Assembly: GCA_902803685.1 (NCBI GenBank)
Contig: CADCQR010000091.1
Span: 1 to 17,602, forward strand
Direction: 5' to 3'
Length of the DNA: 17,602 nt
Source of the DNA: an uncultured Erysipelotrichaceae bacterium
GTDB lineage: Bacteria > Bacillota_I > Bacilli_A > RF39 > UBA660
Positions 2,312 through 17,602 of the stretch are shown in pieces; within the stretch, counting starts at the first letter, position 1, and each line of letters begins with the position of its first letter. A program made the translations under genes and the position numbers. The notes beneath the pieces are model-generated. The model was not told where the DNA came from. It did no database searches and worked only from the letters and a program-made list of their open reading frames with translations.

Positions 2312-2330
2312 TAAAAATTAGTTTTTTTTA
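2301..2330 (+). terminator. Intrinsic terminator of the two-component operon
   Basis: A 9-bp stem (2301-2309 with 2316-2324, one G-U pair) with a 6-nt loop runs into T2322-2328. It overlaps the last codons of the kinase gene. Confidence 0.65.
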
Positions 2331-2346
2331 TAAATAAATATATTTT

Positions 2347-2368: not shown

Positions 2369-2390
2369 GGTACTACTATTAATTTGTAAA

Positions 2391-2640: not shown

Positions 2641-2687
2641 TTCTCACTCTAAATTTAAGTTTAAAAGATATATTATAATTCTCACCA

Positions 2688-2713
2688 AAAGGATATTAAT
2701 AATATCTTTTTTT
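2688..2713 (+). terminator. Intrinsic terminator downstream of the decayed locus
   Basis: A 10-bp stem (2688-2697 with 2701-2710, one G-U pair) with a 3-nt loop is followed by an unbroken T run to 2713. With no intact gene upstream, it looks like the surviving end of the lost operon. Confidence 0.72.
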
Positions 2714-2762
2714 GTTTATATGAAAAGTAATTTTTTGTGATAAAAAATAGCAATATTATACT

Positions 2763-2822
2763 TATAATACTATACAAATGGTTTTAAAAATATGGAAAAT
2801 AATATATAATAATATACAAATG
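2763..2822 (+). repeat. 18-bp direct repeat, 17/18 identical, containing TATAAT
   Basis: TATAATACTATACAAATG (2763-2780) recurs as TATAATAATATACAAATG (2805-2822), offset by 42 bp. Each copy begins with a consensus -10 hexamer. For the second copy a weak -35 (TTTTAA, 2782-2787) lies at 17-bp spacing, so it is a plausible promoter for the operon starting at 2865. The function of the duplication is unknown. Confidence 0.45.
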
Positions 2823-2864
2823 AAAAAGGAACTTGTGTAAAAATATATCAATCGAGGATTAATA

Positions 2865-3512
2865 ATGGACAAAGAAAATATTAAAGACAATTATATATTA
2901 GATGAAGAAAAAGTTAGGCTATTGGGATTTAAATTAGAAAACGAGTTTTATACAAAGAATTATGAAATTAGTGATGAGTTTTATGTATGCTTTTATATAA
3001 ATAGAAATGATTATTTATATAAAGTTTTTGATAAAAATAGTGATGAAGAATATTTACCGTTTTATATAAAGGATTTAACAGGAGAATATATAAGTGAAAT
3101 AAGAAATAAAGTAAAATATATAGAAAACAAAATATTAAGTGAAATTTATGTACCAATAAATATTAAAAATAAGTTATTAGGCTACGTAAAGAACAAATAT
3201 GATTGTATTATTGAAATGCCATGGAATGATGGCAATATAACGATAAAAGATTTTAATAGAAAAAAATGGTATGCACTTATAATGAATATTCCAAGCAAAA
3301 GTTTGCATATAGATAGGGAAGGTAGGGTAGATATAATAAACCTAAAAAATAGTCCGGAAAGGATTACTCGGCTGCAAGAAGAAGGCATTGTATTACCTGC
3401 ATATCATATGAATAAGAAACATTGGTTTACCATAATTCTTGATAAGAATGTTGATATGTTTTTATTAAAACAATTAATTGATGAAAGTTATAATATTGTA
3501 GTAGGAAAATAG
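2865..3512 (+). CDS. YjbR/MmcQ-family protein with an extra N-terminal domain
   Basis: In this 215-aa protein, residues from about 100 to the end match the YjbR/MmcQ (double-wing, CyaY-like fold) family. The evidence is the aromatic W-Y-A-L-I-M-N-I strand, a Lys-Asn-Ser-Pro segment, the near-invariant LPAYHMNKKHWFTIILD block and the terminal LIDESYNIVV. YjbR-type domains alone are about 115 residues, so the first about 100 residues (charged, tyrosine-rich, KLENEFYTKNYEISDEFYVCF) are an additional region I do not recognise. Families of this fold are often annotated as DNA-binding, but that role is poorly established. A GAGGA site precedes ATG 2865. The stop is 13 bp from the next gene, which makes this the first gene of the long operon to 8658. 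Confidence 0.78.
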   Translation: MDKENIKDNYILDEEKVRLLGFKLENEFYTKNYEISDEFYVCFYINRNDYLYKVFDKNSDEEYLPFYIKDLTGEYISEIRNKVKYIENKILSEIYVPINIKNKLLGYVKNKYDCIIEMPWNDGNITIKDFNRKKWYALIMNIPSKSLHIDREGRVDIINLKNSPERITRLQEEGIVLPAYHMNKKHWFTIILDKNVDMFLLKQLIDESYNIVVGK

Positions 3513-3525
3513 AAGGAGTGAAAAG

Positions 3526-3873
3526 ATGCTATTTATATATTATCCAAAATGTACAACTTGTCAAAAAGCAAAGAAATATTTAGATGATAATAAAATTAAA
3601 TATGATGAAAGAAATATTAAAACAGATAATCCAACTATAACGGAATTGAGAGAATGGTATCAAAAGAGTAACTTGCCATTAAAGAAGTTTTTTAATACAA
3701 GTGGATTGAAATATAAAGAACTTAATCTAAAAGAGGGATTATTACATCTAAGTGAAGAGGAACAGTTACAATTATTGTCTACTGATGGAATGTTAATAAA
3801 AAGACCAATATTAGTATATGATAATGAAATAATTTTAGGATATAAAGAAGAAAATTATAAAAATATAAGGTAA
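3526..3873 (+). CDS. Spx/ArsC-family thioredoxin-fold protein
   Basis: A 115-aa protein of the usual ArsC/Spx/YffB length. The N-terminus MLFIYYPKCTTCQKAKKYLDDN carries the redox motif C9-T-T-C12. The middle includes the family segment LREWYQKSNLPLKKFFNTSG. The C-terminal part has the LLSTDGMLIKRPILVYDNEIILGY block, in which Arg and cis-Pro (KRP) shape the active site. True Spx binds the RNA polymerase alpha subunit as a disulfide-stress regulator, while ArsC-type members are glutathione/thioredoxin-linked reductases. The sequence shown does not separate these. RBS AAGGAG (about 3513-3520) is well placed. Placement directly before a cysteine desulfurase suggests thiol or persulfide chemistry rather than arsenate resistance, since no other ars genes are present. 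Confidence 0.82.
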   Translation: MLFIYYPKCTTCQKAKKYLDDNKIKYDERNIKTDNPTITELREWYQKSNLPLKKFFNTSGLKYKELNLKEGLLHLSEEEQLQLLSTDGMLIKRPILVYDNEIILGYKEENYKNIR

Positions 3874-3890
3874 TATTTATTATCTTATAT
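3863..3890 (+). other. 13-bp near-perfect hairpin between operon genes, no T tract
   Basis: ATATAAGGTAATA (3863-3875) pairs with TATTATCTTATAT (3878-3890) over 13 bp with one G-U. It includes the stop codon of the Spx/ArsC-like gene and lies just upstream of the RBS of the desulfurase. No T run follows, so it is not a standard terminator. RNA processing, stabilisation or differential expression within the operon are possible roles. Confidence 0.5.
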
Positions 3891-3909
3891 TAGTAAAAGG
3901 AGAAGTATT

Positions 3910-5046
3910 ATGAAACAGATATATCTAGATAATAATGCTACTACTAGGTTAGATGAAGAGGTATTTAACTCTATGATGCCATATCTAAAAGATATATATG
4001 GTAATCCAAGCAGTATATATTCATTTGGTAAAGAAGTAAAGAACCAAATTACTAATGCTAGAAAAAGTGTAGCAAAACTTTTAAATGCGAGCGAAGAAGA
4101 AATAATATTTACCAGTTGTGCTAGTGAAAGCAATGTTACTGCTATTATGAATGCTATAAGAATATACCCAGAGAAAAAACATATCATAACTACAAAAGTA
4201 GAGCATGCTTCTATTATGGAGACAATGAAGTACCTTGAAAGTATTGGTTATGATATTTCATACTTGTCAGTTGATAGCTTAGGGAAAATCAATTTAGAAG
4301 AGTTGGAAAATACTATTAATAATAATACCTGTTTAATAGCTGTAATGATGGCTAATAATGAAATTGGCAATATATATCCGATTGAAGAAATTGGAGCTAT
4401 TGCCAAAAAACATAATGTTTTATTTCATTGTGATTCTGTTCAAGCTGTTGGAAAAGAAAAAATAGATGTTGATAAGTTGAACATAGATACTTTATCATTA
4501 TCAGGGCATAAAATTAATGCTCCAAAGGGAATAGGTGTATTATACATCAAAAAAGGAATTCCCTATACGCCATTAATATTTGGACATCAGGAAAAAAATA
4601 GGCGTGGTGGTACAGAAAATGTAGCATACATAATAGGTTTAGGAAAAGCGGTAGAGCTAATATTAGAAGATGACTACAAATGTAATGATACTTTGCGTAA
4701 TCTTAGGGATTATATGGAAGCTCAAATAAAGAGTAGCATTAGTGACGTGTTAATATATGGGGACTTAGATAATAGATTACCTAATACTTCTAATATTGCC
4801 TTTAAAGGAATAAAAGCAGAAGAGTTATTATTAATATTAGAATCATTTAATATATTTGTATCAACTGGTTCTGCTTGTAATTCAGAAATAGCTGAGCCAT
4901 CTCATGTACTAGTTGCTTGTAAAGCAGATTTAGAAAATTATAGCCCTATAAGAGTAAGCTTAGGAAAATATAATACAAAAGAAGAAATAGATATATTTGT
5001 TAAGACTTTGATAAATGTTATAAATATGATACGAAAGAGGAAATAA
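3910..5046 (+). CDS. Cysteine desulfurase (NifS/IscS-like, class V aminotransferase)
   Basis: A 378-aa PLP enzyme that would release sulfur from cysteine as an enzyme-bound persulfide plus alanine. The start MKQIYLDNNATTRLDEEV is the canonical NifS/IscS N-terminus. H99 in KVEHAS stacks on PLP. The Asp and Gln ligands sit in HCDSVQAVGK. K201 in LSLSGHKINAPKG is the Schiff-base lysine. The GHQEKNRRGGTENV block follows, and C323 in STGSACNSEIAEPSHVL is the persulfide-forming cysteine, followed by an RVSLGKYNT end. All catalytic residues are present. RBS AAAAGGAGAAG is 7 bases before ATG 3910. No IscU/NifU scaffold or ThiI/MnmA thiolase is adjacent, so the sulfur acceptor must be another protein, possibly one encoded in this operon. 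The next gene starts 2 bp after the stop. Confidence 0.93.
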   Translation: MKQIYLDNNATTRLDEEVFNSMMPYLKDIYGNPSSIYSFGKEVKNQITNARKSVAKLLNASEEEIIFTSCASESNVTAIMNAIRIYPEKKHIITTKVEHASIMETMKYLESIGYDISYLSVDSLGKINLEELENTINNNTCLIAVMMANNEIGNIYPIEEIGAIAKKHNVLFHCDSVQAVGKEKIDVDKLNIDTLSLSGHKINAPKGIGVLYIKKGIPYTPLIFGHQEKNRRGGTENVAYIIGLGKAVELILEDDYKCNDTLRNLRDYMEAQIKSSISDVLIYGDLDNRLPNTSNIAFKGIKAEELLLILESFNIFVSTGSACNSEIAEPSHVLVACKADLENYSPIRVSLGKYNTKEEIDIFVKTLINVINMIRKRK

Positions 5047-5048
5047 AA

Positions 5049-5753
5049 ATGTCAGAAGAAGAAACAAAAAAATTATTAGAATTATTTGATCCAAAAGATA
5101 AAGTAATTTTGGATGTTGGCTGTGGTGATGGTAGGTATGCAAGTGTATTTTCAAAATATTGTAAAGAATATGTAGGAATTGATATAAATAGAGAAATAAT
5201 AGATGCTAATAACAATGATAATACTAAATCAAATGTTTTCTATGAAGTTGCTGATATAGTAAAATATAATGGTAATCAACACTTTGATATTATAGTGTTG
5301 TCATTAGCTTTTCATGAGATAGATATTAAATGTCAAGGACTAGCTCTTATTAATATGTTGAGACTTTTAAATGCTAACGGTATAATAATAATACTTGACC
5401 CGGCCTTTGAAAATGATTCATTTCAAGCATTATGGAATATAGCTTATGATAGTATAAAATTCTATAATCACGATTACTCTGTCAGACACTCACAAGAGGT
5501 TATCCAAAAAGCCTTAGAAAATAATTTATGTAGTATAGTAAAAAAAGATTCATTGGCTATTCCATTTAATTTTGAAACTATTAATGAAATATATGAAATG
5601 ATTGTAACTGATGATGATTTTAAAGATGTTATGTGGGATTCTTATAATAAAGAAAAATTATATGATTGTTTATGTTCATTTCTTCATAAGAAAGAAAATA
5701 TTACTATTTATGACAAATTAGATATAACAATATTAGAAAAGGTAGATGATTAA
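5049..5753 (+). CDS. Class I SAM-dependent methyltransferase
   Basis: A 234-aa protein with a Rossmann-type SAM fold. Motif I VILDVGCGDGRYASVF (about residues 18-33) binds SAM, and motif II ends in the acidic VGIDIN that contacts the ribose. The motif IV region is FDIIVLSLAFHEI, with LNANGIIIILDP as motif V/VI. The C-terminal about 100 residues (helical, NHDYSVRHSQEVIQKAL and beyond) would form the substrate-binding part and give no substrate clue. The nearest general type is Methyltransf_11/UbiE-like. ATG 5049 lies 2 bp after the desulfurase stop with GAGGA overlapping that gene's end, so translation is coupled. The substrate (small molecule, peptide or nucleic acid) cannot be told from the sequence. 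Confidence 0.88.
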   Translation: MSEEETKKLLELFDPKDKVILDVGCGDGRYASVFSKYCKEYVGIDINREIIDANNNDNTKSNVFYEVADIVKYNGNQHFDIIVLSLAFHEIDIKCQGLALINMLRLLNANGIIIILDPAFENDSFQALWNIAYDSIKFYNHDYSVRHSQEVIQKALENNLCSIVKKDSLAIPFNFETINEIYEMIVTDDDFKDVMWDSYNKEKLYDCLCSFLHKKENITIYDKLDITILEKVDD

Positions 5754-5754
5754 T

Positions 5755-6708
5755 ATGAGTAATAAGAAAAAGATAATTTTCTATCTCGATTGGACGGATT
5801 GTTTAGCACATCTAACTGGAGATGATGCTTATAGTGAAGGTGAGACTTCTGCTGAGAAAAGAAAATATACTAGAAATCAAGTAAACCGTTTTTTTAAGGC
5901 ACTAAGAAAGTTAAAAGAAAAATATGATGTTGAGATACATTGTATAACTGGTGGTTCACAGGAATATCTAAATGGTAATGGAAATGGCTGGATAAGTTTG
6001 ATACATGAATTGTTTATAAATGAGGGTTTTCCAGATGTATTTAAGTCTGTAGTTACTGAATATGGAGCAGATTTATTGGTTGGCCCAAATGTACAATTAT
6101 TAGAATGTCCCTATGAAGATTCCAAAAAGTTATGTACGAATCAGTTGTTACAAAATATTAATGATGTTGTACCAGAAGAAATCAAATCTATGGTTGAGTT
6201 ATCATTTTATAAATATTTTGCTAATATAAGATTTTTAAAAGATGATTTAACAGATGAAGAATTTAACTATTATTATGAAATTTTGAAAGAATTTAAAAAT
6301 AATGAGTTATATACATTATATCCTTATTATTGTCCCGGTTATGGAGTTGAAATCGATGTATTGCCAAATGGGCTAGATAAGACAAGAGCTGTTGAAAGTA
6401 TTAATGAGTATTTTTATAAAGACACAAAACCAGAAGATATAGCCTTATCTGTTTTTAATGGCGATTTTCATCAAATTGATTTGAGAATGGTTGATTCTTC
6501 TTTGACAAATGATGTGTTATTTGTTGGCTCTGAAGATGCGGATATAAGTTCTTATATTGAAAGCACTGATTTGCCTTATCGTAATGCAGGACATAAGATT
6601 GAGGCTATTTCTATGGTTATGGAAGAACTCGCTGATGTGGATTTAGAAAAGCATCCATATGATAAAGGGGGATATCAGTATGCCAAACAAAAAAATAATA
6701 ATTTTTAA
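5755..6708 (+). CDS. HAD-superfamily-like protein, atypical first motif
   Basis: A 317-aa protein from ATG 5755. An ATG at 5746 would add MIN, but it overlaps the previous gene and sits too close to the AAAAGG site at 5737-5742. The shape resembles Cof/SPP-type (HAD-IIB) phosphatases. The first strand is IIFYLDWTDCL (D12), motif II is HCITGGS, a basic residue is in VLPNGLDKTRAV, and the acidic motif IV is NGDFHQIDLRM followed by VGSEDAD. In normal phosphatases of this class the first motif is DxDGT. Here the second Asp position is Thr (D-W-T-D-C), as in the DKTGT of P-type ATPases, so chemistry may differ or be lost. The protein is acidic and cytoplasmic. It overlaps the next gene by 29 bp. 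The family call is moderately sure and the substrate is unknown. Confidence 0.6.
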   Translation: MSNKKKIIFYLDWTDCLAHLTGDDAYSEGETSAEKRKYTRNQVNRFFKALRKLKEKYDVEIHCITGGSQEYLNGNGNGWISLIHELFINEGFPDVFKSVVTEYGADLLVGPNVQLLECPYEDSKKLCTNQLLQNINDVVPEEIKSMVELSFYKYFANIRFLKDDLTDEEFNYYYEILKEFKNNELYTLYPYYCPGYGVEIDVLPNGLDKTRAVESINEYFYKDTKPEDIALSVFNGDFHQIDLRMVDSSLTNDVLFVGSEDADISSYIESTDLPYRNAGHKIEAISMVMEELADVDLEKHPYDKGGYQYAKQKNNNF

Positions 6709-7093
6709 AAATTTAACTACAGGTTTTATGAATTTAAAATATATAAATTATTTAGCAGATGTTCTCTCTAAAAACAATGGGTTACGAGAAAATTTAGTAT
6801 TTATATTAGACAATAGCGCTTCTAATGAAAGTAATCAAGCTATAATGCAAATGTATAATAAATTACTTGGCTATAATATATTTAGTGTGGCTTATTCAAA
6901 TGGTGAGATACTAGAATATAGAGAATTAAATGATTTAGAGTTAAGAAAAAAGATAAATGGTATTAATATAGAATTAAATTCTTTTTTAAAAGAAAAGTAT
7001 AAAGACTATAATACAGAAATACATATAATAGAAAATGATATCTATGAAAATATTTTGTCAATTATTGGGGAGGATGTTCAGTGGCAGTATTAG
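6680..7093 (+). CDS. Unrecognised 138-aa protein in the sulfur/redox operon
   Basis: I do not recognise this family. The chosen start, ATG 6680, has a strong AAGGGGG site (about 6664-6671) at correct spacing. An in-frame ATG at 6659 would precede that site and add only seven residues. The protein (MPNKKIIIFKNLTTGFMNLKYINYLADVL...) alternates hydrophobic strands (KIIIFKN, NLVFILDN, FSVAYSNGEI, TEIHIIEND) with amphipathic helices, suggesting a small alpha/beta fold. It has no Cys, no signal peptide and no membrane segment. It overlaps the gene before it by 29 bp and the ferredoxin-like gene after it by 13 bp, so it is a genuine member of the operon and probably acts with its neighbours. Confidence 0.7.
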   Translation: MPNKKIIIFKNLTTGFMNLKYINYLADVLSKNNGLRENLVFILDNSASNESNQAIMQMYNKLLGYNIFSVAYSNGEILEYRELNDLELRKKINGINIELNSFLKEKYKDYNTEIHIIENDIYENILSIIGEDVQWQY

Positions 7094-7674
7094 TCAACTT
7101 TAAAATTTGTGATAATGCAAAAGAATGTGGGGGTATTTCTGTATGCCCGACTGGTGCGTTATCATGGAATGAAGAAAAAAAGTCAATTGAAATAGATAAT
7201 GATAAATGTATTTCATGTGGACAATGTGAAAAAGAATGCCCCATAGGTGCAATTATGATCTCTAAGAGTAGAGAAGAATATGAAAAAAATAAAAAAGAAA
7301 TAGCTGAAGACACAAGAACTATAAAAGATTTATTTGTAGATAGATATGGGGCGTCTCCTTTATCTGATTTTTTTAAAATTGATGGTAGTGATATAGAAGC
7401 AAAGAAAAATCTAAAAAGAATAACTCTTATAGAACTATATAATGATGATTCTATACAATGCTTACTTAAATCAATTCCAATCAAAAAAATAACTGAAAAT
7501 TTTGAAGATATTATGTTTTATAAGGTTTATGCTGATGATGAGACTCTAAAAAAATATAATATTAATGTATTGCCATCATTATTAGTCTTCAAAGATGGTA
7601 AATTAAATAATATTGTAGAGGGATATTATTGTGAAGAAGAATATTCAACATTAATTTCAAAAATAGATTTATAG
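7081..7674 (+). CDS. Ferredoxin-thioredoxin-fold fusion protein
   Basis: A 197-aa protein starting at GTG 7081, 7 bases after GGGGAGGA. Residues 1-60 are a 2x[4Fe-4S]-type ferredoxin domain. The second motif is classical (C43-x2-C46-x2-C49-x3-C53-P), while the first is unusual (C10-x5-C16-x5-C22-P) and one Cys short, giving seven in all. Cluster II (C43, C46, C49 with C22) should assemble; the other may be 3Fe-4S or missing. Residues about 105-197 have a thioredoxin-like pattern ending in YNINVLPSLLVFKDGKLNNIVEGY with the cis-Pro, but a single Cys (in SIQCLL) stands where CxxC is normal. It would be a cytoplasmic electron carrier, plausibly serving the desulfurase or another enzyme of the operon. 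That partnership is inferred from the overlapping gene order. Confidence 0.8.
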   Translation: MAVLVNFKICDNAKECGGISVCPTGALSWNEEKKSIEIDNDKCISCGQCEKECPIGAIMISKSREEYEKNKKEIAEDTRTIKDLFVDRYGASPLSDFFKIDGSDIEAKKNLKRITLIELYNDDSIQCLLKSIPIKKITENFEDIMFYKVYADDETLKKYNINVLPSLLVFKDGKLNNIVEGYYCEEEYSTLISKIDL

Positions 7675-7687
7675 GATTAAGGTGACA

Positions 7688-8658
7688 ATGCGGCTATATC
7701 TAAAAAGAACATTGATACTTTAGTAAGAGAATTTGTCAAAAATCCTCGTGCTTTGGAGAATTATAGTAAGAATTGTCTCTCTATATTAAAAAATGATTTG
7801 ATTAAAAGAAAAACAATATGATCATACTATAAGTAGTTATGATTATTTGAAAGAATTTATTGACGCTTATGAGGTAAATTAATACTTACTTTTAAGAGAA
7901 TATATATTTTTTTATAAAGACTTTGTTTCTAAAATTGATAGGAAACATCTTAAAGTTATACACTCAAATATATATTATTTAAATGAATCAGATAAGTTTC
8001 TTGAAGATATGAATGTTATTTTAGAAACAAACAATATGATAGGGAGTACAGACTCAAAAACCAATAGTCAGCAATATGATAGATTAGACTTTCTAGTTGC
8101 AACTACAGAAGATAGTATAGATTTAGATGAAGATAAAGAATATACTCATTCGGAAATATATAACCTTGTCCAAGACAAAAAAATATATGTTTTGAATAGT
8201 TATACATCGACAGTAGTTTTGATATTGATGAAGAAGCAAATAAAAGTAAAACTAATTGCGATAAAATATATATAACTCAATGTGGCTCGGAATATCTTGG
8301 TGTTAAGACAATGGTAGTTGATGCTTATTACCAACACAATGATAAAAGTGTGTGGGGAGAAATTTATGCACCATTTTGTGATTATATTAGGACACGAGAA
8401 GTTTCTTTTGATTCTAATGCACAAAGTAAAATAAGCATTACTAAAAAGTTTTATGAAACAATAGAACACTTATCTAATATAATGACAGCAGTATCTGCTT
8501 ATTATAGAAAAAGAAAAAAAGCTATGCCGGAGATTTTAGACGATGCCATATCTGAGATTAGAAGTTCAATAGACCAGCTTACGGATGAATTTGAAACCTC
8601 ATTAGGTCAAAATTTAAAGACGTATAAATTGGGAAGTAATAGTGAGCAGACGGGATGA
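7688..8658 (+). pseudogene. Broken last gene of the operon, family unknown
   Basis: Joined across lesions, this reads as about 320 residues. The part AAISKKNIDTLVREFVKNPR... runs to a TGA at 7818. The next frame continues with KQYDHTISSYDYLKEFIDAYEVN, hits an in-frame TAA at 7880-7882, then goes on through FLEDMNVILETNN to about 8205. There the frame shifts back to YIDSSFDIDEEANKSKTNCDKIYITQCGSEYLGVK and ends at 8658. The start is also damaged: ATG 7688 after AAGGTGAC is out of frame with the first segment. The protein is soluble, charged and helical, with no motif I recognise. It begins 13 bp after the ferredoxin-thioredoxin gene, so it was part of that operon. ATGs at 8009 and 8311 only yield internal fragments. 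Confidence 0.72.
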
Positions 8659-8783
8659 TTAAATAGTAATAGTCTCACGCCCTTACCTTTTATTAATAGT
8701 AACATAAGATAAACTAGGGTGGTGATACTATTATTTTTTTATTTTGTTTTTTTATTCCTGGGGTTTACGTTTTAATTAAAGTA

Positions 8784-9629
8784 TTGATATATTTTCTAAC
8801 AATTAAATTTGGAAAAATCTCATATGATGGATTTTCGGCTGTAGGATTTGATTATAATGCGGAAAAAGACATATTCTATTCAGCAAAAGATGCCTGGCAA
8901 AAAAACTTTGGTTATTGTCATCTATACGATGTTAGTGCACCACTATTTTGTATGATAATTGATACAGAACCGATTAAGTTTTATTATAATAACAAAAATT
9001 GGCTTATATCATTTTGGAAAGGGCAATATGGTATGGTTACAGGGGCAGAAATCGGAATCTATTATACAAATCATATGATGGTTGATAAAAATACTGTATA
9101 TATGCCAGCCAAAGAAGAAGATATGCCTAAAATATCATTTGCTTTATATCGAAAAGGTTCAGAAATAGCTAAGGCAACGGCAAGGCATTGGTGGTTAGCA
9201 ATTTTTAAATTAGGACTATTTAGTAATCCCAAAGATTTGGTTATGGATATAGAATTAACGTTTCCATCAAAAAAAATGTTAGCAGCTTTTATTACTGCCT
9301 TTAAGAAAAAGGGATATAAAGATAAAGATTATAAAATTATCGCAGATACATTTTATTTTACATATAAAAAGCCACATACAAGAAAAGTTTGGACTAGGAA
9401 TTGGCTGACAGATAAATTTAGACAGAAGTTTAATAAAAGGAATGTAATATTATATAATAAGTATCTAATAGATTTGATTGATGATAATTTAATAGATGAT
9501 GCACAAAGTAAAACTCATAATAAACTATTATTGGTAAACAAAATGATTCCGACTTTATTAAAAAATCATAAAAAGAGTAACGATATTGAAGTATTGGGAA
9601 ATGAGTCAGAGGATGTTGATATAGTATGA
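8784..9629 (+). CDS. DUF4474 protein, probably membrane-anchored
   Basis: The body matches the clostridial DUF4474 family: GFDYNAEKDIFYSAKDAWQKNFGYC, then FYYNNKNWLISFWKGQYGMVTGAEIGIYYT, then ATARHWWLAIFKLGLFSNPKDLVMDIELTFPS. The function of the family is not known to me. The start is unresolved. TTG 8784 has no RBS, yet the same frame stays open back to 8718 and encodes a strongly hydrophobic stretch (IIFLFCFFIPGVYVLIKVLIYFLTI). The G-rich AGGGTGGTG (8716-8724) is well spaced only for ATT codons at 8730 or 8733. The natural product therefore probably has an N-terminal membrane anchor begun from ATT, or the original start was mutated. The C-terminus is basic, then acidic (NESEDVDIV). Its TGA overlaps the next gene's ATG (ATGA), so the two are translationally coupled. 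Confidence 0.8.
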   Translation: MIYFLTIKFGKISYDGFSAVGFDYNAEKDIFYSAKDAWQKNFGYCHLYDVSAPLFCMIIDTEPIKFYYNNKNWLISFWKGQYGMVTGAEIGIYYTNHMMVDKNTVYMPAKEEDMPKISFALYRKGSEIAKATARHWWLAIFKLGLFSNPKDLVMDIELTFPSKKMLAAFITAFKKKGYKDKDYKIIADTFYFTYKKPHTRKVWTRNWLTDKFRQKFNKRNVILYNKYLIDLIDDNLIDDAQSKTHNKLLLVNKMIPTLLKNHKKSNDIEVLGNESEDVDIV

Positions 9630-10504
9630 GTAAAAAACTAAATAAGCTCTTTCAAAAGTCTAAAAAGATTATGATAAGTGACAATACAAAAATTGTTATT
9701 ATGAGTGATTGTCATAGAGGATCTGGAGATAGCTATGATACTTTTTTACATAATAAACACATATATGAAGCAGCTCTGCGGCATTACTTTGATTTGGGAT
9801 TTACTTACATTGAATTAGGTGACGGTGATGACATGTGGGAAGTAAAGAATTATAAAGATATAATTGAAGAACATATAAATACCTTTAAGCTATTGAAAGA
9901 GTTTCATAAGTCGGATAGATTGATTATGATTTATGGCAATCATGATATGTGCAAAAAATCTAAAAAGGTATTAAAAGATACATTTTACAAATATTATGAC
10001 AAAACGACAAAAAAAGAAGAACCATTATTAGATGATATTGATGTAAGAGAATCTCTGGTATTATTATATAAAAAATATGAGATATTTCTTATTCATGGTC
10101 ATCAGGTTGACTTCTTAAATAATAACTTATGGTTATTTTCTAGATTCTTAGTAAGACATATATGGAGACCTTTGGAAAGACTTGGTATCAAAGATCCAAC
10201 AAGTGCTGCAAAGAATTATCAAGTATCTAACAAGAAAGAAAAAAAGCTAGAAAAATGGAGCATTGATAATAATAAGATATTAATATCTGGACACACCCAT
10301 AGGCCTATTTTCCCTAAAATAGGGAAAAGCTTATATTTTAATGACGGTTCTTGTGTGCATCCTAATGGAATAACATGTATAGAAATAGAAGCTGGTGGAA
10401 TAACTTTGGTTAAGTGGTTATATCATTTGGATAACAATAAAGCAATTTCTGTTCGCCGCGTAGTATTAGAGGGGAAAGAGTCAATAGTAACCTTTTTTAC
10501 TTAG
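9626..10504 (+). CDS. Calcineurin-like metallophosphoesterase
   Basis: A 292-aa protein with the full set of binuclear-metal motifs: D28-C-H30 (SDCHRG), GDGDD (65-69), G-N-H-D (104-107), IHGHQVD and the C-terminal SGHTHRPIF. Such enzymes hydrolyse phosphomonoesters or diesters using Mn/Fe/Zn pairs. The SDCHRGSGD and ELGDGDDMWE forms resemble those of LpxH/UDP-diacylglucosamine-type and related stand-alone phosphoesterases, although a lipid A role is unlikely in a Gram-positive. No membrane segment or signal peptide is seen. The ATG overlaps the DUF4474 stop by 4 bp, suggesting that the phosphoesterase works with a membrane-bound DUF4474 partner. Its 3' end overlaps the convergent minus-strand gene by 8 bp, and no terminator is apparent between them. 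The substrate is unknown. Confidence 0.88.
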   Translation: MSKKLNKLFQKSKKIMISDNTKIVIMSDCHRGSGDSYDTFLHNKHIYEAALRHYFDLGFTYIELGDGDDMWEVKNYKDIIEEHINTFKLLKEFHKSDRLIMIYGNHDMCKKSKKVLKDTFYKYYDKTTKKEEPLLDDIDVRESLVLLYKKYEIFLIHGHQVDFLNNNLWLFSRFLVRHIWRPLERLGIKDPTSAAKNYQVSNKKEKKLEKWSIDNNKILISGHTHRPIFPKIGKSLYFNDGSCVHPNGITCIEIEAGGITLVKWLYHLDNNKAISVRRVVLEGKESIVTFFT

Positions 10505-11303
10505 AGTTTTTTGAGGTATAATCTACAGTTAGATCGTCTACGATTTCAAATCTGTGCTTTTGCTTAGTTACATTGTCTTTTCTTTTTGCGTCGATAGTTT
10601 CAAAAAACATTTCCGCAGGTCTAACCCAAATATTAGAATCTTCTCTGTTGTATAATGTTTTGTATACTACCACATATTTTTTAGTTTCAGAATCCATACA
10701 AATATTATCAATATAATAATAATTCCCTTTAAAATGTCTAACTACTTTGCCTATATAATCTTTATAAATTTTTGAACCTTTCAATCCGTCTTCATTCTGA
10801 TAAGATGGATTTTTTTCATTATAATATAAAAGACTTTCATCAACTTTATCATCCATACTTTCAAAAATAACTTGGGCAATCTGTAAGTTTGGTATTAGAA
10901 TATATGTATTTTTAGAATTATTAAATATAGTGATATTTAATTTTCCTCTATATCCTGGATTTAAATGCTGAGAGGAAATGAATATTCCTAAACGGTTAAA
11001 AGAGGTTCTACCACGAATTGAGGCACAAATGTAATCAGGAATATTGAATTGTTCTTCTAATGCGATTAATATACATTCACCTGGTTTAAATTTATATCCA
11101 TCGCTTATATCAATTTCTTCATACATATCATTTATAAAATCAGCATCAATTAATGAAACATCTTTTTTTGTTGTTTTGAATCTTAATATATGATTACTTG
11201 TAGTAACATCATATGAAGAAGAATGTATATTTTTGACATTAGCTTTTTCAATAAGAATATTATCTTTAATTAATTTTTCTATACTTTTTCCATTTAATAT
11301 CAT
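10497..11303 (-). CDS. dCTP deaminase/dUTPase-fold protein fused to DUF1653
   Basis: A 268-aa protein. ATG 11303 gives MILNGKSIEKLI, the usual dCTP-deaminase N-terminus, with GTAGG upstream; a TTG six codons earlier is less likely. Residues 1-165 have the Dcd/dUTPase fold: YICASIRGRTSFNRLG (91-106, triphosphate-binding loop), HLNPGYRGKLNITIFN (113-128) and LIPNLQIAQVIFE. Residues about 183-253 form a DUF1653 domain (GKVVRHFKGNYYYIDN, YVVVYKTLY, WVRPAEMFFE). Set against E. coli Dcd (HRIDPGWSGCIVLEF), the Asp is N115 and the catalytic Glu is T125, so deamination or dUTP hydrolysis is doubtful. The protein could bind nucleotides without turning them over. Genuine Dcd enzymes can act in phage defence. 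This one stands alone on the minus strand, diverging from the large paralogues. Confidence 0.82.
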   Translation of the reverse strand: MILNGKSIEKLIKDNILIEKANVKNIHSSSYDVTTSNHILRFKTTKKDVSLIDADFINDMYEEIDISDGYKFKPGECILIALEEQFNIPDYICASIRGRTSFNRLGIFISSQHLNPGYRGKLNITIFNNSKNTYILIPNLQIAQVIFESMDDKVDESLLYYNEKNPSYQNEDGLKGSKIYKDYIGKVVRHFKGNYYYIDNICMDSETKKYVVVYKTLYNREDSNIWVRPAEMFFETIDAKRKDNVTKQKHRFEIVDDLTVDYTSKNSK

Positions 11304-11404
11304 AAAAATACCTACTTTCAAATTAATTTTATCATATTTTATATTAAATGGTTAGAATAAATATTTATATTTTTTTAACAAATAAAATAGTATGACAAGA
11401 TGTA

Positions 11405-11413
11405 TGTTATAAT
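11405..11413 (+). promoter_or_regulatory. Extended -10 promoter element before the 853-aa gene
   Basis: TGTTATAAT (11405-11413) is a consensus extended -10. No good -35 is seen at 17 bp. A start of transcription 6-8 bases later would fall at about 11420, inside the first codons of the annotated frame (ATG 11416), which matters for choosing the start codon. Confidence 0.4.
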
Positions 11414-11415
11414 TA

Positions 11416-13977
11416 ATGTATAAGATTATATGGGATGTGACTACTGTGGAAGAATATGATAAAAAGCTAGAATTGATTTTGTCATTACCTAAATCTATCG
11501 CAATAAAATATATAAATCATCATTTTGATAAATTTGGTGTTAATGAATTTTATAAAATTGTTGATAGAGTTCCAATTAGGTTGGAAAATTTTCGCTGTAA
11601 TAGGGAATTAAATGAAAATAGTAATGTTCTCAATTATATGCTAAAAAAAGATGGTACAGCTTTTAGATACTTTGCTCCATGTGCAATGACGGAAGAAAAT
11701 ATTGAAACGATTGCAAACCAAAAAAATGACCTTAATCTAAATGATATGTATAACTTTCCACAATTATTAAAAAATTCAAAAATATGGCTAAAGTTTGATT
11801 GTGATATTCGGCCTTTTTTGTCTCTTGTTTCTAATTTATATGATTATATAAATGTTTATGTTGATGAAAATGACCAAGAACAACAAGCAAAATATTATAC
11901 ATATTTAGATTTATTTGTAGATGCTATAGCAAGTCTAAGATACAGAGAAGACAAAGAAAACTTTTTATATACAGATATTGTTTCTTTAAATAAAAGTATA
12001 TTATCGACATTTGATAGTGCATATGTAGCTGGTGATACACTTATAATTTCTCAGTACATTGAACAACTGTATAATTTTTGTGGAGGGTTGATTCCTAAAA
12101 ATGTAATTGAAGAAGAAGTTAATAGATATTATGCAATTTATTTAGAAAATAATGTAATAGATTTATCCCTTACTAAAGACTTTTGTAATATGGTACTTAA
12201 TCAACATCGTAACAATTATATAAGAATTACAAAAGAAGAAATACTAGCAGAAGTACAAAAAAAGTTGGAATTAACAGAGACAAGAAAAAATTCGATTTTA
12301 ATGAGTAGAAAGATAAGAAAAGTAGAAAAGTTTATACGACATGGTGATTATGCTAGCTTAGGTATAACTGTAGAAGAATATGAAGATTTGTTTGATAATG
12401 TCAAAACATTGATTCTAAATAATAAAGATATCATGAAGAGTGGAATATCATTAAGCGAAATTAAGCTTTTGGGATTATTTGAAATATTTAATACTCATGG
12501 ATTCTTGAATTCACAAATTGTTGCTAAGTATTTACAATGTACAGAAAATGAGTACACTGATTTTATTGCTAGAAAATTTGAACAGGTAAAGTTTCATTTA
12601 GCGCAAAATATAACATTAACCAAAGATGAAAAGGAGATTAGTACTACTGATAAATTAAAGCAGGAGGGCATTACTCCTACAAACTTTATTATTGCTAACT
12701 CTAAGCTTACAGCAAATAACATTTCTGATATTTTAAGAAGTATTAATTCAGAAGAGAATTATAAAAAAGTTTTGTGGAATGAACGTTTTATAAAAGATTT
12801 TACTTTTTTAATTCCTTTTGTAAATCTCTTAGATGAATTAGATACTAATACTATGATAAATATTTTATTATATTCAGAAAAAATTATGTACAAATTATTT
12901 AAAGGTAATGATGAGTTATCTCCAAAGACTAAGGCATATTTGATTCTAAAACATCTTGATAAAGTTATTTCCTTGGCTAAAGAATATGCTTCATTGGACG
13001 ATTTATCAAAATATGTTATTGGGCAACAAAATGCTAAGCTATTGGAAGATGATGTATCAGCTTATTTAGATGTCTATCATAATATGCTTACTAGAAAAGC
13101 GTGCTCTATTCCACCTATAAAATTAGAAATAGATAATTTATTTTATGAAGCTGGAAAATATGGTGATTTTGATAGATTGCTAATTGGTAAGATTCCTTAT
13201 GCTGACAGTTGTATAACCCCAACAAATTATGCTGGAAAAGCTACATTTTATGAGGTGCTTTTTGGAGAAAATGCAGATGTTATTCTTGTAAAGAACAATG
13301 AAGGTCAGATGGTATCAAGGATTTTTGCTTTTCGTAGGGGAAATGTTGTGCAGTTGGTTGGAAGCGCTAATAAACCAATTCGAGGAGAGGTTTATAAAGA
13401 AATAGCAGATGAAATTATAAAAAAAGCAATCGATAATGATGATAATATTGATTATGTTTTTGTAAGCACATTTTCGGTTTATGCTGGAGCTGATTTTCCC
13501 CGTGTACATGATATATGTTTTGAAAGAGAGTTTCCGCATGCTGATACTGGATATGCAGCATATTTATTAAGTTCTAAGGAATTGCTTGGGGGAGAAATAG
13601 CTAGCCCTTTAAAACTTAAATTAACTGATTTACCTAAAGGAAAATATATCGGCACAAGAAGCAATATAAATTATAGTCCACCGGAATTTGAAATTACAAG
13701 ATTAAGAGCATTAGATATTGTTATGGATGAAAATATTGATTCCAGAGAGCGAAAGGAACATTTGTTTGAACCGTTTAGTATGTCTGATTACGAAAGCGTT
13801 GTATGTGGTCAAGACTGGTATATAGCTGTAAAAAAAGATAAAACAATTGAAGAAGTAATTTTACCAACTAATGATAATAGAATCTATGAAGAAATGGCAA
13901 TAGCAAAAGAAAAATTACAATTAAGTTATGATGATAATTCTATGGAAGATAGTTTTATTCATTGTACAAAAAGATAA
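11416..13977 (+). CDS. Large unrecognised protein, paralogue A (853 aa)
   Basis: I do not recognise this family. It is paralogous to the next gene from about residue 150 to the end. Shared blocks include ASLRYREDKENFLYTDIVSLN, FCNMVLNQHRNNY, a helical middle (about 250-540) and a C-terminal alpha/beta module. In that module, DRLLIGK (586-592) leads to C599 in ADSCI, then VSRIFAFRRGNVVQLV (about 633-648), DNIDYVFV, H708 in FPHAD, C797 in VVCGQDWYIA and KKDKTIEEVILPT. The first about 75 residues are unique to this copy. There is no signal peptide or membrane segment, so it should be cytoplasmic. ATG 11416 has no RBS and lies right after a -10 element; GTG 11437 or 11446 may be the real start. 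The gene heads a probable three-gene operon. Confidence 0.85.
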   Translation: MYKIIWDVTTVEEYDKKLELILSLPKSIAIKYINHHFDKFGVNEFYKIVDRVPIRLENFRCNRELNENSNVLNYMLKKDGTAFRYFAPCAMTEENIETIANQKNDLNLNDMYNFPQLLKNSKIWLKFDCDIRPFLSLVSNLYDYINVYVDENDQEQQAKYYTYLDLFVDAIASLRYREDKENFLYTDIVSLNKSILSTFDSAYVAGDTLIISQYIEQLYNFCGGLIPKNVIEEEVNRYYAIYLENNVIDLSLTKDFCNMVLNQHRNNYIRITKEEILAEVQKKLELTETRKNSILMSRKIRKVEKFIRHGDYASLGITVEEYEDLFDNVKTLILNNKDIMKSGISLSEIKLLGLFEIFNTHGFLNSQIVAKYLQCTENEYTDFIARKFEQVKFHLAQNITLTKDEKEISTTDKLKQEGITPTNFIIANSKLTANNISDILRSINSEENYKKVLWNERFIKDFTFLIPFVNLLDELDTNTMINILLYSEKIMYKLFKGNDELSPKTKAYLILKHLDKVISLAKEYASLDDLSKYVIGQQNAKLLEDDVSAYLDVYHNMLTRKACSIPPIKLEIDNLFYEAGKYGDFDRLLIGKIPYADSCITPTNYAGKATFYEVLFGENADVILVKNNEGQMVSRIFAFRRGNVVQLVGSANKPIRGEVYKEIADEIIKKAIDNDDNIDYVFVSTFSVYAGADFPRVHDICFEREFPHADTGYAAYLLSSKELLGGEIASPLKLKLTDLPKGKYIGTRSNINYSPPEFEITRLRALDIVMDENIDSRERKEHLFEPFSMSDYESVVCGQDWYIAVKKDKTIEEVILPTNDNRIYEEMAIAKEKLQLSYDDNSMEDSFIHCTKR

Positions 13978-14019
13978 GAAAGTTAATATAAAATATAATT
14001 GGAAAGTTGGAAGATATTA

Positions 14020-16371
14020 ATGAGAGATATATTAAATAATAATGGGGAAGAAAGGGCGAAATATTGGTTAGAAGATGTTTATAGTAATCCAATGTTGTTG
14101 CCTGATGAGATAGTAAAAGATGAGTTAAGAGATAAAATTATTCAAAAACAAACAGTAAGAAACATTATTTTAAATTCAAAACTATCCAATCCTGAAGTAA
14201 AAAAGCTTAAAGCAGTTGAAGACTTATTTTCTGATTTAAATATTGATGTAAATGAAAATGATTATAATCAGCAAAAATACTATTTAAAGCTTTTGGATAT
14301 GTTAATAGACTGTATTGTTAGTTTAAGATATACAAAAATGAAACCTAAATTTTTATATCCAGATATTGTATCTTTAAATGAAAGTTTGTCTGCGGTGTTT
14401 TCTAATTTGTCATTAACAAAGGATTTTGATGTCTTTGCTAGCAAAATACAGCAAATATATACTTTTAGTGGAGAAACATTGCCATTTGAATATATAAGAG
14501 ATGAATTACAGAAGTGTTATGACATATATAGAGAACAAGGTTTTATTGATTTATCAATTACTGGAGTTTTTTGTAATGAAGTATTAAATCAGCATAGAAA
14601 TTCTTTTATGAAATATGAAAAAGAAAAAATATTATTAGAATTATCGAAGAAATTAAGAATTAGTTCAAGAGTAGAACAATCAGTCTTGCGTGGAAGAAAA
14701 TTAAATAAAATTAGTGAAGCTATAAAATTACGCGATTTTGAAAAATTGGGTATAACATATGAAGACTATGTATCATTACTTGAAAAAGTAAAACAAGAGA
14801 TTACTACTAATTCGGATATAAAAAAGCAAGGAATAACACTTAATAATCAAATGTTAAATGCTTTAGTTAGACAATTTCATAAGCATGGATACTTAGATTC
14901 TGATTTGGTAGAAGCCTGTATTAAAGTGAATAATAAAGAAGTTACAAGATATATTGCATCTAAGTTTGAGAATGTAAAATTGCATTTTTTGGCTAATGTA
15001 CATTTATATGGAGATGAGGCAATTGTAACAGAGCAGGATTTAATAAAATCAAACGGAATAAATTATAAAGATTTTGTTATTGCCGATAAAAATAGGTTAG
15101 TCGAAAATATATCAGATGTTTTATCTTCTATAGATGATGACGTGATATTAGAGCAAATTTCAGAAAATAGTAGAGATATTGATGAGATATCTCCGTTAAT
15201 TCTTTTTTTAAATCTATTTGATGAGTTGGATTCTAGTACATTCATAAATATTTTAAGTGATTATGAAAGAATAAAAAGTAGGTTGTTTGATGATGATAAA
15301 CAATTTGATGATACTAGTATGGAAACTATATGGAAAAGATTAGATGATATTATTTTGTTAGCAAATGCATATGGGGATGCGGATGATATTACACTGGCTG
15401 CATTAGGAAGTGACGTTGTTGGTGAAATAAATCAAAGTTTCTGCAATAAATATCTAGGGTGCTATCTTGAAATGCTTGATAGGCAAACTGGAAGTATTCC
15501 GCCTATAAGTATAAATAAAGGTGGATACTACTTTGAATCTGGAAGATATTCTGATCCTGAGAGATTATTAATAGGAAAAAAGCCTAGAGATACAAGCTGC
15601 ATTGATTTGCTACATCCAGGAGGTGTTAAAACATATAATGAAGTCTTATTAAAATATACTGGGGATGTTATTCTTGTTAGAAATCAAAATCATAATTTAG
15701 TTTCTCGAATATTAATGTTTAGAAGAGGAAATGTTGTACAACTTGTAACTGCCGTAAATAATACGTATCCATCAGCAATATACAAAGAAATTGCCGATAA
15801 GATAATTCAAGAATCTATTGCCACAAATGATAATATTGATTATGTATTCGTAAATAAGAATAGTTTATCTGAAAATAATTGTAATTTTAGAATGGTAGAA
15901 GATTCTAGGTTTGTAAATAAGTTTCCACATGCTGATTTTGATACCACTGCCTTTTTGGCTAGCTCAAAGAGAATGTTAGCTGGTGAAGAAGATAATTTGA
16001 TGCCAGATTTTTCTGCTCAGATTAGAGGAAATTATATTAAACCTAGAGCAAAAATACAATATGATCCATCACCGGAATCAATCACGCGGTTAAAAGCATT
16101 AAGTATTGTCATGGAAAGAGATGAGGAAAAAAGAGAAGAACGTTCTAGAAATTATATTCCGTTCTATCAGCAAGATTATAGTAGGGTAGTTTGTGGTGAG
16201 GATTGGTATATAGCAATAAAAAAGGATAAAACAATTGAAGAAGTAATTTTGCCAACCAAAGATACGAGAAAATATGAAGAGATAAGAGTAGTTAAAGAAG
16301 GCCTTGGATTAATTGATCCAAACGACTTAGAAAACGGGGAGATAACCAATGAAGACAAAAGGAGTTATTAA
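14020..16371 (+). CDS. Large unrecognised protein, paralogue B (783 aa)
   Basis: The family is the same as the preceding gene and is unknown to me. ATG 14020 is chosen because GGAAG (about 14009-14013) is correctly spaced; TTG 13999 lies upstream of that site. Blocks aligned with paralogue A are VSLRYTKMKPKFLYPDIVSLN, FCNEVLNQHRNSF, then ERLLIGK (514-520), C527 in DTSCI, VSRILMFRRGNVVQLV (about 561-576), DNIDYVFV, H637 in FPHAD, C725 in VVCGEDWYIA and KKDKTIEEVILPT. Cys527, His637 and Cys725 are retained in both copies, so the C-terminal module could be catalytic or metal-binding (inference). The central helical part is much more diverged. It lies 42 bp after paralogue A and overlaps the small OB-fold gene by 23 bp, so all three are probably expressed together. 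Confidence 0.87.
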   Translation: MRDILNNNGEERAKYWLEDVYSNPMLLPDEIVKDELRDKIIQKQTVRNIILNSKLSNPEVKKLKAVEDLFSDLNIDVNENDYNQQKYYLKLLDMLIDCIVSLRYTKMKPKFLYPDIVSLNESLSAVFSNLSLTKDFDVFASKIQQIYTFSGETLPFEYIRDELQKCYDIYREQGFIDLSITGVFCNEVLNQHRNSFMKYEKEKILLELSKKLRISSRVEQSVLRGRKLNKISEAIKLRDFEKLGITYEDYVSLLEKVKQEITTNSDIKKQGITLNNQMLNALVRQFHKHGYLDSDLVEACIKVNNKEVTRYIASKFENVKLHFLANVHLYGDEAIVTEQDLIKSNGINYKDFVIADKNRLVENISDVLSSIDDDVILEQISENSRDIDEISPLILFLNLFDELDSSTFINILSDYERIKSRLFDDDKQFDDTSMETIWKRLDDIILLANAYGDADDITLAALGSDVVGEINQSFCNKYLGCYLEMLDRQTGSIPPISINKGGYYFESGRYSDPERLLIGKKPRDTSCIDLLHPGGVKTYNEVLLKYTGDVILVRNQNHNLVSRILMFRRGNVVQLVTAVNNTYPSAIYKEIADKIIQESIATNDNIDYVFVNKNSLSENNCNFRMVEDSRFVNKFPHADFDTTAFLASSKRMLAGEEDNLMPDFSAQIRGNYIKPRAKIQYDPSPESITRLKALSIVMERDEEKREERSRNYIPFYQQDYSRVVCGEDWYIAIKKDKTIEEVILPTKDTRKYEEIRVVKEGLGLIDPNDLENGEITNEDKRSY

Positions 16372-16549
16372 TGAATTTAATGGTAGATATGGTACAATTA
16401 ATATGAACAATGAAATAGTAGACTTTTCTGCTAAAGATATATCGAATAATGAAAAAGTGCAAGTTGGTGATTTAGTTGAATTTAGATTGGAAGTAAAATT
16501 TCCTAATATTAAAATAGCCAGAAATATTAAGACTTTAGTTATAATTTAA
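16349..16549 (+). CDS. Small cold-shock-like OB-fold protein (66 aa)
   Basis: A 66-aa protein, about the length of a bacterial cold-shock protein. The layout fits that fold: KGVINEFNGRYGTINMNNE stands where CspA-type proteins have GxVKWFNxxKGFGFI, and DFSAKDI corresponds to the FVHFSAI strand. The last strands are KVQVGDLVEFRLEVKFPNIKIARNI. The aromatic RNP1/RNP2 residues are reduced, because Phe-Gly-Phe is replaced by Tyr-Gly-Thr, so nucleic-acid binding may be weakened or altered. RBS GGGGAG lies 7 bases before ATG 16349. The gene starts 23 bp inside the end of paralogue B, so it is translationally coupled to it, which suggests a partner role. An S1-like or other OB fold is the main alternative. 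Confidence 0.65.
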   Translation: MKTKGVINEFNGRYGTINMNNEIVDFSAKDISNNEKVQVGDLVEFRLEVKFPNIKIARNIKTLVII

Positions 16550-16667
16550 TTAGCAAAAGAGAGTGCTGGTACTAATGTGATTAAATGCATTAATAATTAT
16601 AATAAGCGATGATATATAATATAAATATATTGATTAGATTTTGGCATTAACGGTGGACAAGATAATA

Positions 16668-17363
16668 ATGGATTTTGACATAGAAATTTCACGATATAAT
16701 ACAAATAGCCTCAAATATGATTTTAAAGAGGAATGTGGTAAATCGAGGATGTTTTTCTAATGTGGGTTGCAGATATGGACTTTAAATGTTGTGATGAAAT
16801 ACATAGTGATTTTGTATGGAAAGGCAGTCATTTCTGCTTATTAAATTATAAAGATTATATCAATAATATCATTGCTTGCACTTCTTAAACTAAAACATTT
16901 AATGTAGCTGGATTACAAGTATCTAATATTTTTATTCCCAATGGTACAATAAGGGAAGGGCTCCAGACGGAATTATGGAATACAGGATATAGTTTAATTA
17001 ATATTATGGGCTTGGTTGCTTGCCAGGTGGCATATGAGAAAGGTCAAGTGCGGTTAGATGAGTTAAGAGTATACTTAAAATTTAATATAGAGTATGTTAA
17101 TTCATTCTTAAAGAAAAATATTCCTAAAAGAGAGATGATATATCCAGAAAGAACATATTTAGTTTGGTTAGATTTTAATAAAATGAATTTAACGGATGAT
17201 GAAATAGAGGAATTAATGCTAAAAAAGGCAAAACTGTGGTTAGATAACGGAAAGTTTTTTGGTAAAGCGGGGAGTGACTTTTCAAAGATTAAATATTGCT
17301 TTACCTCGAAAAAAATTAGAATGGGCAATCCGGCAATTAGAAAAAACATTTAAAGATATTTAA
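16668..17363 (+). pseudogene. Dead MalY/PatB-type C-S lyase (aminotransferase class I/II)
   Basis: Fragments follow the MalY/PatB family in order. MDFDIEISRYNTNSLKYDF is the N-terminus; after a frameshift near 16740-16745, EDVFLMWVADMDFK follows. The frame then jumps directly to DEIHSDFVW, missing about 160 codons between the N-terminal and PLP domains. Next come a TAA at 16886-16888 just before TKTFNVAGLQVSNIFIPN (the Lys is the PLP lysine), NIMGLVACQVAYEKGQ, ERTYLVWLDFNKM and LWLDNGKFFGKAGSDF. An extra T in the run at 17279-17282 shifts the frame to QRLNIALPRKKLEWAIRQLEKTFKDI, ending at 17363. Intact members cleave cystathionine or cysteine conjugates with PLP. A 115-codon frame from 17006 is only part of this relic. 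Confidence 0.88.
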
Positions 17364-17408
17364 AGAAAAAATTTAGATATTTCTAATAAAATCATTGTAC
17401 ACTAAATT

Positions 17409-17440
17409 AAAGTCAAATAATTTGTAATTTGACTTTTTTT
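17409..17440 (+). terminator. Strong intrinsic terminator
   Basis: A perfect 10-bp stem (17409-17418 with 17427-17436) encloses an 8-nt loop and ends in a T run to 17440. It closes the transcript containing the MalY/PatB relic. Confidence 0.82.
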
Positions 17441-17528
17441 GTCTTATTAAAATAAATCCAAATAAAAATTAACAGTATCTCATAAAATGATAAAAATAAT
17501 TTTATACAATACATCGTGACCCCCTGAG

Positions 17529-17558
17529 TTACTATGTATTTTTGTTTTGTAGTATAAT
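17529..17558 (+). promoter_or_regulatory. Promoter of the gene at the window edge
   Basis: The -10 TATAAT (17553-17558) is consensus. TTACTA (17529-17534) is a weak -35 at 18-bp spacing. It lies 27 bp before the start codon at 17586. The stretch 17441-17528 shows nothing else recognisable. Confidence 0.5.
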
Positions 17559-17561
17559 ATG

Positions 17562-17599
17562 TAACTTGAAAAGGAGGTGAAAATTATGTGGTCAAGTTA
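17562..17599 (+). repeat. 8-bp inverted repeat around RBS and start codon
   Basis: TAACTTGA (17562-17569) and TCAAGTTA (17592-17599) are perfect inverted repeats. The transcript could fold with the RBS and AUG in a 22-nt loop, a possible translational control element. Confidence 0.35.
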
Positions 17600-17602
17600 T
17601 CA
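17586..17602 (+). CDS. Start of a gene truncated by the window end
   Basis: The consensus RBS AAGGAGGTGA (17571-17580) is 5 bases before ATG 17586. Only MWSSY and part of the next codon are visible, so no product can be named. Confidence 0.5.

Follow-up and report, generated by a model that had tools for sequence, protein, structure and literature searches.

What two adjacent cytoplasmic proteins of about 800 residues do together with a small OB-fold, cold-shock-like partner is the question raised by one stretch of DNA from an uncultured Erysipelotrichaceae bacterium (GCA_902803685.1, contig CADCQR010000091.1, positions 1 to 17,602). We analysed the whole stretch of 17,602 nucleotides, which appears to be a complete contig and is called the window here. 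The two large proteins, encoded by genes A and B, end in a shared module with a single invariant cysteine; the same module is spread over unrelated N-terminal scaffolds in other genomes, and its genes are linked to OB-like genes. We tentatively favour the reading that genes A and B and the OB-like gene make up a cytoplasmic protein-modifying unit, in which a shared GNAT-like C-terminal module is carried by a helical scaffold. The features on which the argument depends, all on the forward strand, are as follows.

Positions 11416-13977, forward strand: gene A, an open reading frame of 853 residues, with an N-terminal stub, an acidic helical scaffold (residues ~135-560) and the C-terminal module, predicted GNAT-like (~564-845).
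Positions 13105-13596, forward strand: domain 1 of gene A (residues ~564-727), predicted GNAT-like; its limits are transferred from gene B by alignment.
Positions 13210-13212, forward strand: codon of the invariant Cys599 of gene A.
Positions 13999-16371, forward strand: gene B, an open reading frame of 790 residues from TTG 13999 or 783 residues from ATG 14020; in the 790-residue numbering, structure models place the helical scaffold at 70-493 and the C-terminal module at 499-780.
Positions 15493-15984, forward strand: domain 1 of gene B (residues 499-662), predicted GNAT-like, with the invariant Cys534 and the R-x-G-N motif.
Positions 15598-15600, forward strand: codon of the invariant Cys534 of gene B (Cys527 in the 783-residue form).
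Positions 16042-16338, forward strand: domain 2 of gene B (residues 682-780), predicted to resemble the N-terminal half of a GNAT domain, with the DWYIA motif.
Positions 16349-16549, forward strand: the OB-fold/cold-shock-like gene, 66 residues, overlapping gene B by 23 bp.

The three genes run in one direction, with a gap of 21 bp between gene A and the TTG of gene B. The span of 11416 to 16549 given in an earlier note, made from the letters of this DNA, matches the open reading frames, and the 23-bp overlap that the note described between the second large gene and the small one is confirmed. A Shine-Dalgarno-like GGAAG lies directly 5' of ATG 14020 of gene B, whose 783-residue form is the one in the protein database, and GGGGAG lies 5' of ATG 16349 of the OB gene. 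Because these motifs precede the ATGs, the 783-residue form of B and the 66-residue OB protein are both likely to be translated. No RNA gene was found in the window at gathering score. Promoter-like sites number 52 in the window against 42.5 (sd 6.8) in shuffles, and there is one terminator-like site against 1.1.

The last ~290 residues of the large proteins form one homologous unit, as judged from alignments of 25 and then 32 members. In the 32-member alignment, A5, whose members go down to 15% identity with gene B, just one column is invariant, that of the first cysteine, which is Cys599 in A and Cys534 in the 790-residue form of B. This residue is kept in 39/39 close relatives and in 82/82 members of a wide set, the 82-row alignment being guided by the A5 profile, which favours conserved columns; the column is already invariant in MAFFT alignments of the 39 and the 32 members. 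Other residues kept in the wide set (gene B, 790-residue numbering) are G526 (81/82), R575 (77/82), N578 (66/82), G577 (64/82), W736 (60/82) and D735 (55/82). The earlier note had read a kept set of Cys (599/527), His (708/637) and a second Cys (797/725), and all three residues are present at these positions. Only the first cysteine is family-wide: the histidine is found in 38/39 close relatives, the remaining one having a gap, but in only 16/82 of the wide set, where tyrosine is commoner (47), and the second cysteine is found in 26/39 and 12/82, respectively. A Cys/His/Cys triad was dropped on the strength of this wide alignment.

Genes A and B do share many conserved blocks, as first noticed, with 43% identity over 308/720 aligned positions (E 2e-175). 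In windows of 60 residues the identity is 27-47% in the scaffold and 35-55% in the module, and only the extreme N-termini cannot be aligned. The earlier note had ascribed divergence to the helical middle and the N-termini; between A and B it is clear at the extreme N-termini and not in the helical middle. Compared with relatives of ~1,090 residues, gene A lacks a block of ~250 residues of N-terminal repeats, and gene B lacks the same block and most of the N-terminus that precedes it. In a quick maximum-likelihood tree of the module, gene B clusters with those of loci L001, L002 and the L033 pair (SH-aLRT 97; L numbers are our labels for related loci) and gene A falls outside, in contrast to the two L039 genes, which are sisters (99). 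Since the tree puts A outside the group of B, the pair in the window seems not to stem from a recent duplication. Both proteins are acidic, with net charges of -26 for A and -25 for B.

Searches against named families did not identify the large proteins. In Pfam, NCBIfam, PADLOC and PHROGs, A and B gave weak and scattered matches (best E 0.022) and no fitting family; PADLOC gave 0 families for either, and the PDB sequences held no significant match to gene A or to the A1 and A5 profiles (best for A5, E 0.069). That no family can be named for these proteins, as had been stated from the letters alone, thus holds in all of these searches. Pfam GNAT families were matched neither by A and B nor among the best 25 of the 34 families for the A3 query. 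Searches of the protein database returned at least 3, 2 and 36 entries, among them the copies from the window itself; these lists are partial, as only ~8,000 candidates sharing most words were scored. A search of genome contigs gave three related loci, from two uncultured Bacilli and one Erysipelotrichaceae bacterium with genomes of 1.0, 1.4 and 1.8 Mb. No description of the module family was found in literature listings and the opening parts of abstracts, and term searches of PMC7301438 and PMC10868615 gave nothing relevant.

How, then, is the module built? The AlphaFold model of the module (pLDDT 91.4, pTM 0.88) predicts a GNAT-like domain followed by the N-terminal half of a second one. In a structure search with the module, the 50 VIA rows listed are GNAT-type acyltransferases, nearly all by title; we take Rv1347c, NAGS and NAA80 to be proteins among them. 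A resemblance to a well-known enzyme family, which the earlier note had held would speak against an undescribed system, is thus present at the level of the predicted fold and does not extend to the signature motif of that family. The P-loop of GNAT enzymes is described in PMC4964394 as Gln/Arg-x-x-Gly-x-Gly/Ala between beta4 and alpha3, and the same source mentions atypical P-loops in some true GNATs and tandem or partial GNAT domains. Across the 82 module members no conserved acyl-CoA P-loop was found: five of them have the pattern after the RGN motif and before the strand that follows, at no shared place, and three of the five are near-identical copies from L161. Gene A has one such pattern (QLVGSA) and gene B has none. 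Since conservation of this motif is lacking, a donor role for acetyl-CoA held in the canonical manner is improbable.

The same observations could be explained if the module were a non-catalytic adaptor, that is, a degenerate GNAT-like domain serving as a platform for binding or assembly, in which the cysteine is structural or a redox switch. The unconserved P-loop, the second domain being only half, the strong scaffold character of the proteins and the Arg-Gly-Asn motif, which suits a turn as well as catalysis, would all agree with such a platform. We consider it unlikely, because the cysteine is kept throughout the wide set, including members that share as little as 15% identity with gene B, and most other positions drift, a pattern that by analogy would be more typical of an active residue.

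Another conceivable source of the module is the PcfJ domain known from plasmids and phages, of which it would be a diverged form. In BFVD, PcfJ-like phage proteins rank first and second with the full-length model (E 5.8e-3 and 8.3e-3), and by eye the PcfJ cysteine is similarly placed and followed by strands of a like pattern. With the module alone, however, PcfJ-like entries drop to rank 27 and lower, and the hhalign probability is 0.3-1.65%, which 7 and 15 of 150 column-shuffled controls equalled. As the profile comparison did no better than shuffled columns, membership of the PcfJ family, hinted at by BFVD, was rejected, and we regard this explanation as very improbable. The best viral structural match of the module in BFVD is a phage protein of 656 residues, A0A7G9A3X2 (E 5.4e-4, TM 0.40).

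The module is present in 88/288 sampled genomes of one order of Bacilli, with 125 matches and 1-6 per genome, and in 5/392 genomes of a sample of the phylum, all five of which are also among the matches of the order set. Where listed, the module-bearing genomes of the order are 0.6-1.7 Mb, and the module genes are mostly ~2 to 5 kb. Three types of scaffold are fused to it: helical repeats, LRR_5 repeats and a class of ~1,600 residues. DUF4116 scores above its cutoff in the scaffold of L083, and LRR_5 scaffolds are found in L160 and L161 (E 5.3e-69 and 6.5e-60) and, by eye, in L162. The long class measures 1,220-1,675 residues and includes a clade of 11, ten of which have a coupled partner of ~340 residues. 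Tandem module genes recur at L033, L039, L160, L161 and L162. The architecture is the inverse of that of a polymorphic toxin, in that the module at the C-terminus stays the same and the scaffold at the N-terminus is exchanged. Together with the linked OB-like gene, this supports the earlier suggestion of a conserved domain carried by variable regions in a multi-gene cassette. Fusion to helical, LRR_5 and ~1,600-residue scaffolds would suggest an effector on interchangeable binding scaffolds.

Several further genes were seen at these loci. The ~340-residue partner (L046, L151, L152, L154-L159 and L166) lies downstream of the module gene and overlaps it by 11-41 bp, the L156 copy being cut at the contig end; its start may be ProA-like. 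Pfam Aldedh has matches in five of the neighbours scanned (best E 6.1e-9), and among the partners tested singly those of L046 and L152 match it. Coupled upstream genes of 270-300 residues at L136, L140 and L141 are peptidase-like by eye, and two scanned neighbours match Pfam Peptidase_M28. A 194-residue protein without a Pfam match (L132:5628-6212, reverse strand) overlaps a module gene, and its cluster, ankyrin-like by eye, recurs near four loci (L132, L051, L142 and L150). At L003:13841-20548 (reverse strand) a repeat protein of 2,235 residues, with a C-terminal end that is kinase-like by eye, lies near a module gene, and at L045:5810-10753 (reverse strand) a protein of 1,647 residues matches the N-terminal repeats of the family with no match to the C-terminal module.

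Is the small gene part of the same system? A profile made from an alignment of seven OB-like proteins has 19 matches in 15/288 genomes of the order, and 17/19 of them overlap a module gene or are no more than 60 bp away from one. In 15 of the 17 the OB gene lies downstream of the module gene, and in L049 and L080 it lies upstream. The two exceptions are at L091, inside a histidine-kinase-like frame and probably false, and at L082 (5779-5997, forward strand), where an OB-like gene adjoins a protein of 397 residues and no module gene. Moreover, the OB gene was the sole route to 11 large proteins, and each of these matches, at E < 1e-30, the hidden Markov model (HMM) of the module, made from 25 members that did not include them. 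The linkage of the OB gene to module genes is real. Its extent is limited by the 59/82 module proteins with no detected OB neighbour. Such a neighbour is found for 23/82, 19 by HMM and four by eye (L128, L131, L134 and L135); 11 of the 82 come from loci fetched through an OB match, and among the other 71 the number is 12. On the module tree the OB label is clustered and spread over several supported clades, with at least 10 changes against a mean of 20.3 in shuffles and 0/500 shuffles as low, although sampling by way of the OB gene supplied 11 of the 23 labelled rows and adds to the clustering. Since the label is spread in this way, the tree fits an association that would be old and lost or replaced many times.

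A cold-shock-like partner raises the question of RNA. The OB profile hits the CSD chains of Unr with a whole-sequence E of 0.003, and the window protein matches PADLOC CSD_V at E 0.011; against Pfam CSD, with a curated cutoff of 27 bits, the window protein stays below at 14.2 bits and the L128 partner reaches 24.7 (E 2e-5). By eye, the overall OB pattern is kept, the ribonucleoprotein (RNP) motifs are eroded and their aromatic residues are partly lost. On this evidence one may think of tRNA- or RNA-dependent aminoacyl transfer, in which aminoacyl-tRNA would be the substrate of the GNAT-like domains, as it is for Fem, MprF and ATE1, and the OB protein would hold the RNA. Some enzymes with a GNAT fold are known to take aminoacyl-tRNA in place of acyl-CoA (PMC2922099, PMC10115844), the two-domain layout with an unconserved P-loop would suit them, and MprF is found at rank 44 of the VIA rows for the full-length model. 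The charges speak against such a transfer. In 39 sequences the median net charges are -5 for domain 1, -1 for helix alpha3, the putative equivalent of the tRNA-binding helix, and -4 for domain 2, whereas ATE1-type enzymes are described as relying on a helix with positive charge (PMC10115844), and the isoelectric points of the OB partners range from 4.1 to 9.4 with a median of 5.4. We therefore find aminoacyl transfer quite unlikely. As the large proteins and the module domains are acidic and the OB charge is mixed, our results favour proteins over nucleic acids as partners.

The genomic setting bears on another explanation, an intracellular conflict system of the toxin-antitoxin or abortive-infection kind, in which the large proteins would sense, the module would poison the host and the OB or other partner would be antidote or trigger. 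That coupled partners differ by class (the OB protein, or the ~340-residue protein beside 10/11 of the ~1,600-residue clade), that module genes occur in tandem and that their presence is patchy (88 of the 288 genomes, up to six matches in one) are consistent with a conflict system, as is the existence of GNAT-fold toxins, of which AtaT is in the VIA list of the module. Within 4 kb of the loci there are 543 neighbours, and 143 from 72 loci were scanned, at most two per locus and 90-600 residues long, the window apart and with no background set. At a threshold of E 1e-5, 69 PADLOC models found a match, each in one neighbour and none in more than one of the 143; the single matches would agree with a conflict system, the lack of recurrence speaks against it, and the large proteins themselves have no PADLOC family. 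Pfam gave 142 families, of which the best 25 are mostly enzymes or related to the cell wall or translation, with DDE transposases in 3 and 2 members; the listed neighbours read mostly as housekeeping genes. The MerR-like and YbjQ neighbours that L040, L041 and L084 have in common suggest vertical descent. The lack of a recurring PADLOC family, though from a scan without background, argues against defence islands. No relative was found by tblastn in phage records (gene B and two module sequences) or plasmids (gene B), or in viral contigs (gene B, two module sequences and A3), each a search of low sensitivity. A setting in defence or mobile islands, for which the earlier note had suggested a survey, is thus not borne out with these scans and queries, and we hold a conflict system to be rather unlikely. 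A phage or plasmid origin was likewise set aside on these low-sensitivity searches, although, given the structural match to A0A7G9A3X2, a phage relative may exist.

We return to the protein-modifying unit. We suggest that the scaffold would bind or select a protein target, the invariant cysteine would act as a nucleophile or acyl carrier that moves a group to it, and the OB subunit, docked on the large protein, would control or assist the reaction. Extended to the family, it is possible, if doubtful, that a CoA-independent, GNAT-derived cysteine module on interchangeable target-recognition scaffolds with class-specific coupled subunits is a new protein-modification system of small-genome Bacilli, the OB-like subunit being probably the oldest. 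If the module is an enzyme, its GNAT-derived chemistry would do without the usual CoA site; if it belongs to a conflict system, that system is one missed by PADLOC-DB. The module, unnamed in the libraries searched, occurs in 88/288 genomes of the order, and having one invariant cysteine and a small subunit linked to it makes its function open to direct tests in vitro.

Other genes flank the three in the window. Divergent from gene A lies a dCTP deaminase fused to a DUF1653 domain (10497-11321, reverse strand), and positions 8784-10504 hold a DUF4474 protein and then a calcineurin-like phosphoesterase, overlapping by 4 bp. Positions 17006-17353 encode the C-terminal part of a C-S lyase of the PatB type (NCBIfam E 5.2e-23); the start of this gene appears broken upstream.

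How does the system compare with those already described? The module resembles the GNAT superfamily in the predicted core of domain 1, in its half second domain and in the VIA rows listed, and differs from it in the unconserved P-loop, the invariant cysteine, its C-terminal place on large repeat scaffolds and the lack of a Pfam GNAT match. The 66-residue window protein has the OB-like pattern of CSD proteins, whose Unr chains its profile matches weakly, yet it falls below the CSD cutoff, has eroded RNP motifs and belongs to a group of which 17/19 stand beside a module gene. With the PcfJ family (PF14284) there is a fold-level resemblance in BFVD and a cysteine at a like place, against no significant profile relation and no Pfam PcfJ match for A and B or among the best 25 of the 34 families for A3. 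Transferases of the Fem/MprF/ATE1 type share a GNAT fold without acyl-CoA and, in some, a two-domain layout (PMC2922099, PMC10115844); unlike them, the module is acidic and comes with a repeat scaffold and an OB partner, and no sequence relation was found. DUF4116 and LRR_5 repeat proteins match the scaffolds of some members, a match limited to the N-terminal parts, so that the module lies outside both families. The component folds, namely the GNAT-like core, the OB fold and LRR_5, are already known, and a biochemical result could bring the system closer to a known kind. The libraries searched name no family for the proteins, the module does not conserve the signature motif of the one family that it resembles in fold, and a constant cysteine module with exchangeable scaffolds and class-specific partners did not turn up in our literature searches, so that the system is probably undescribed.

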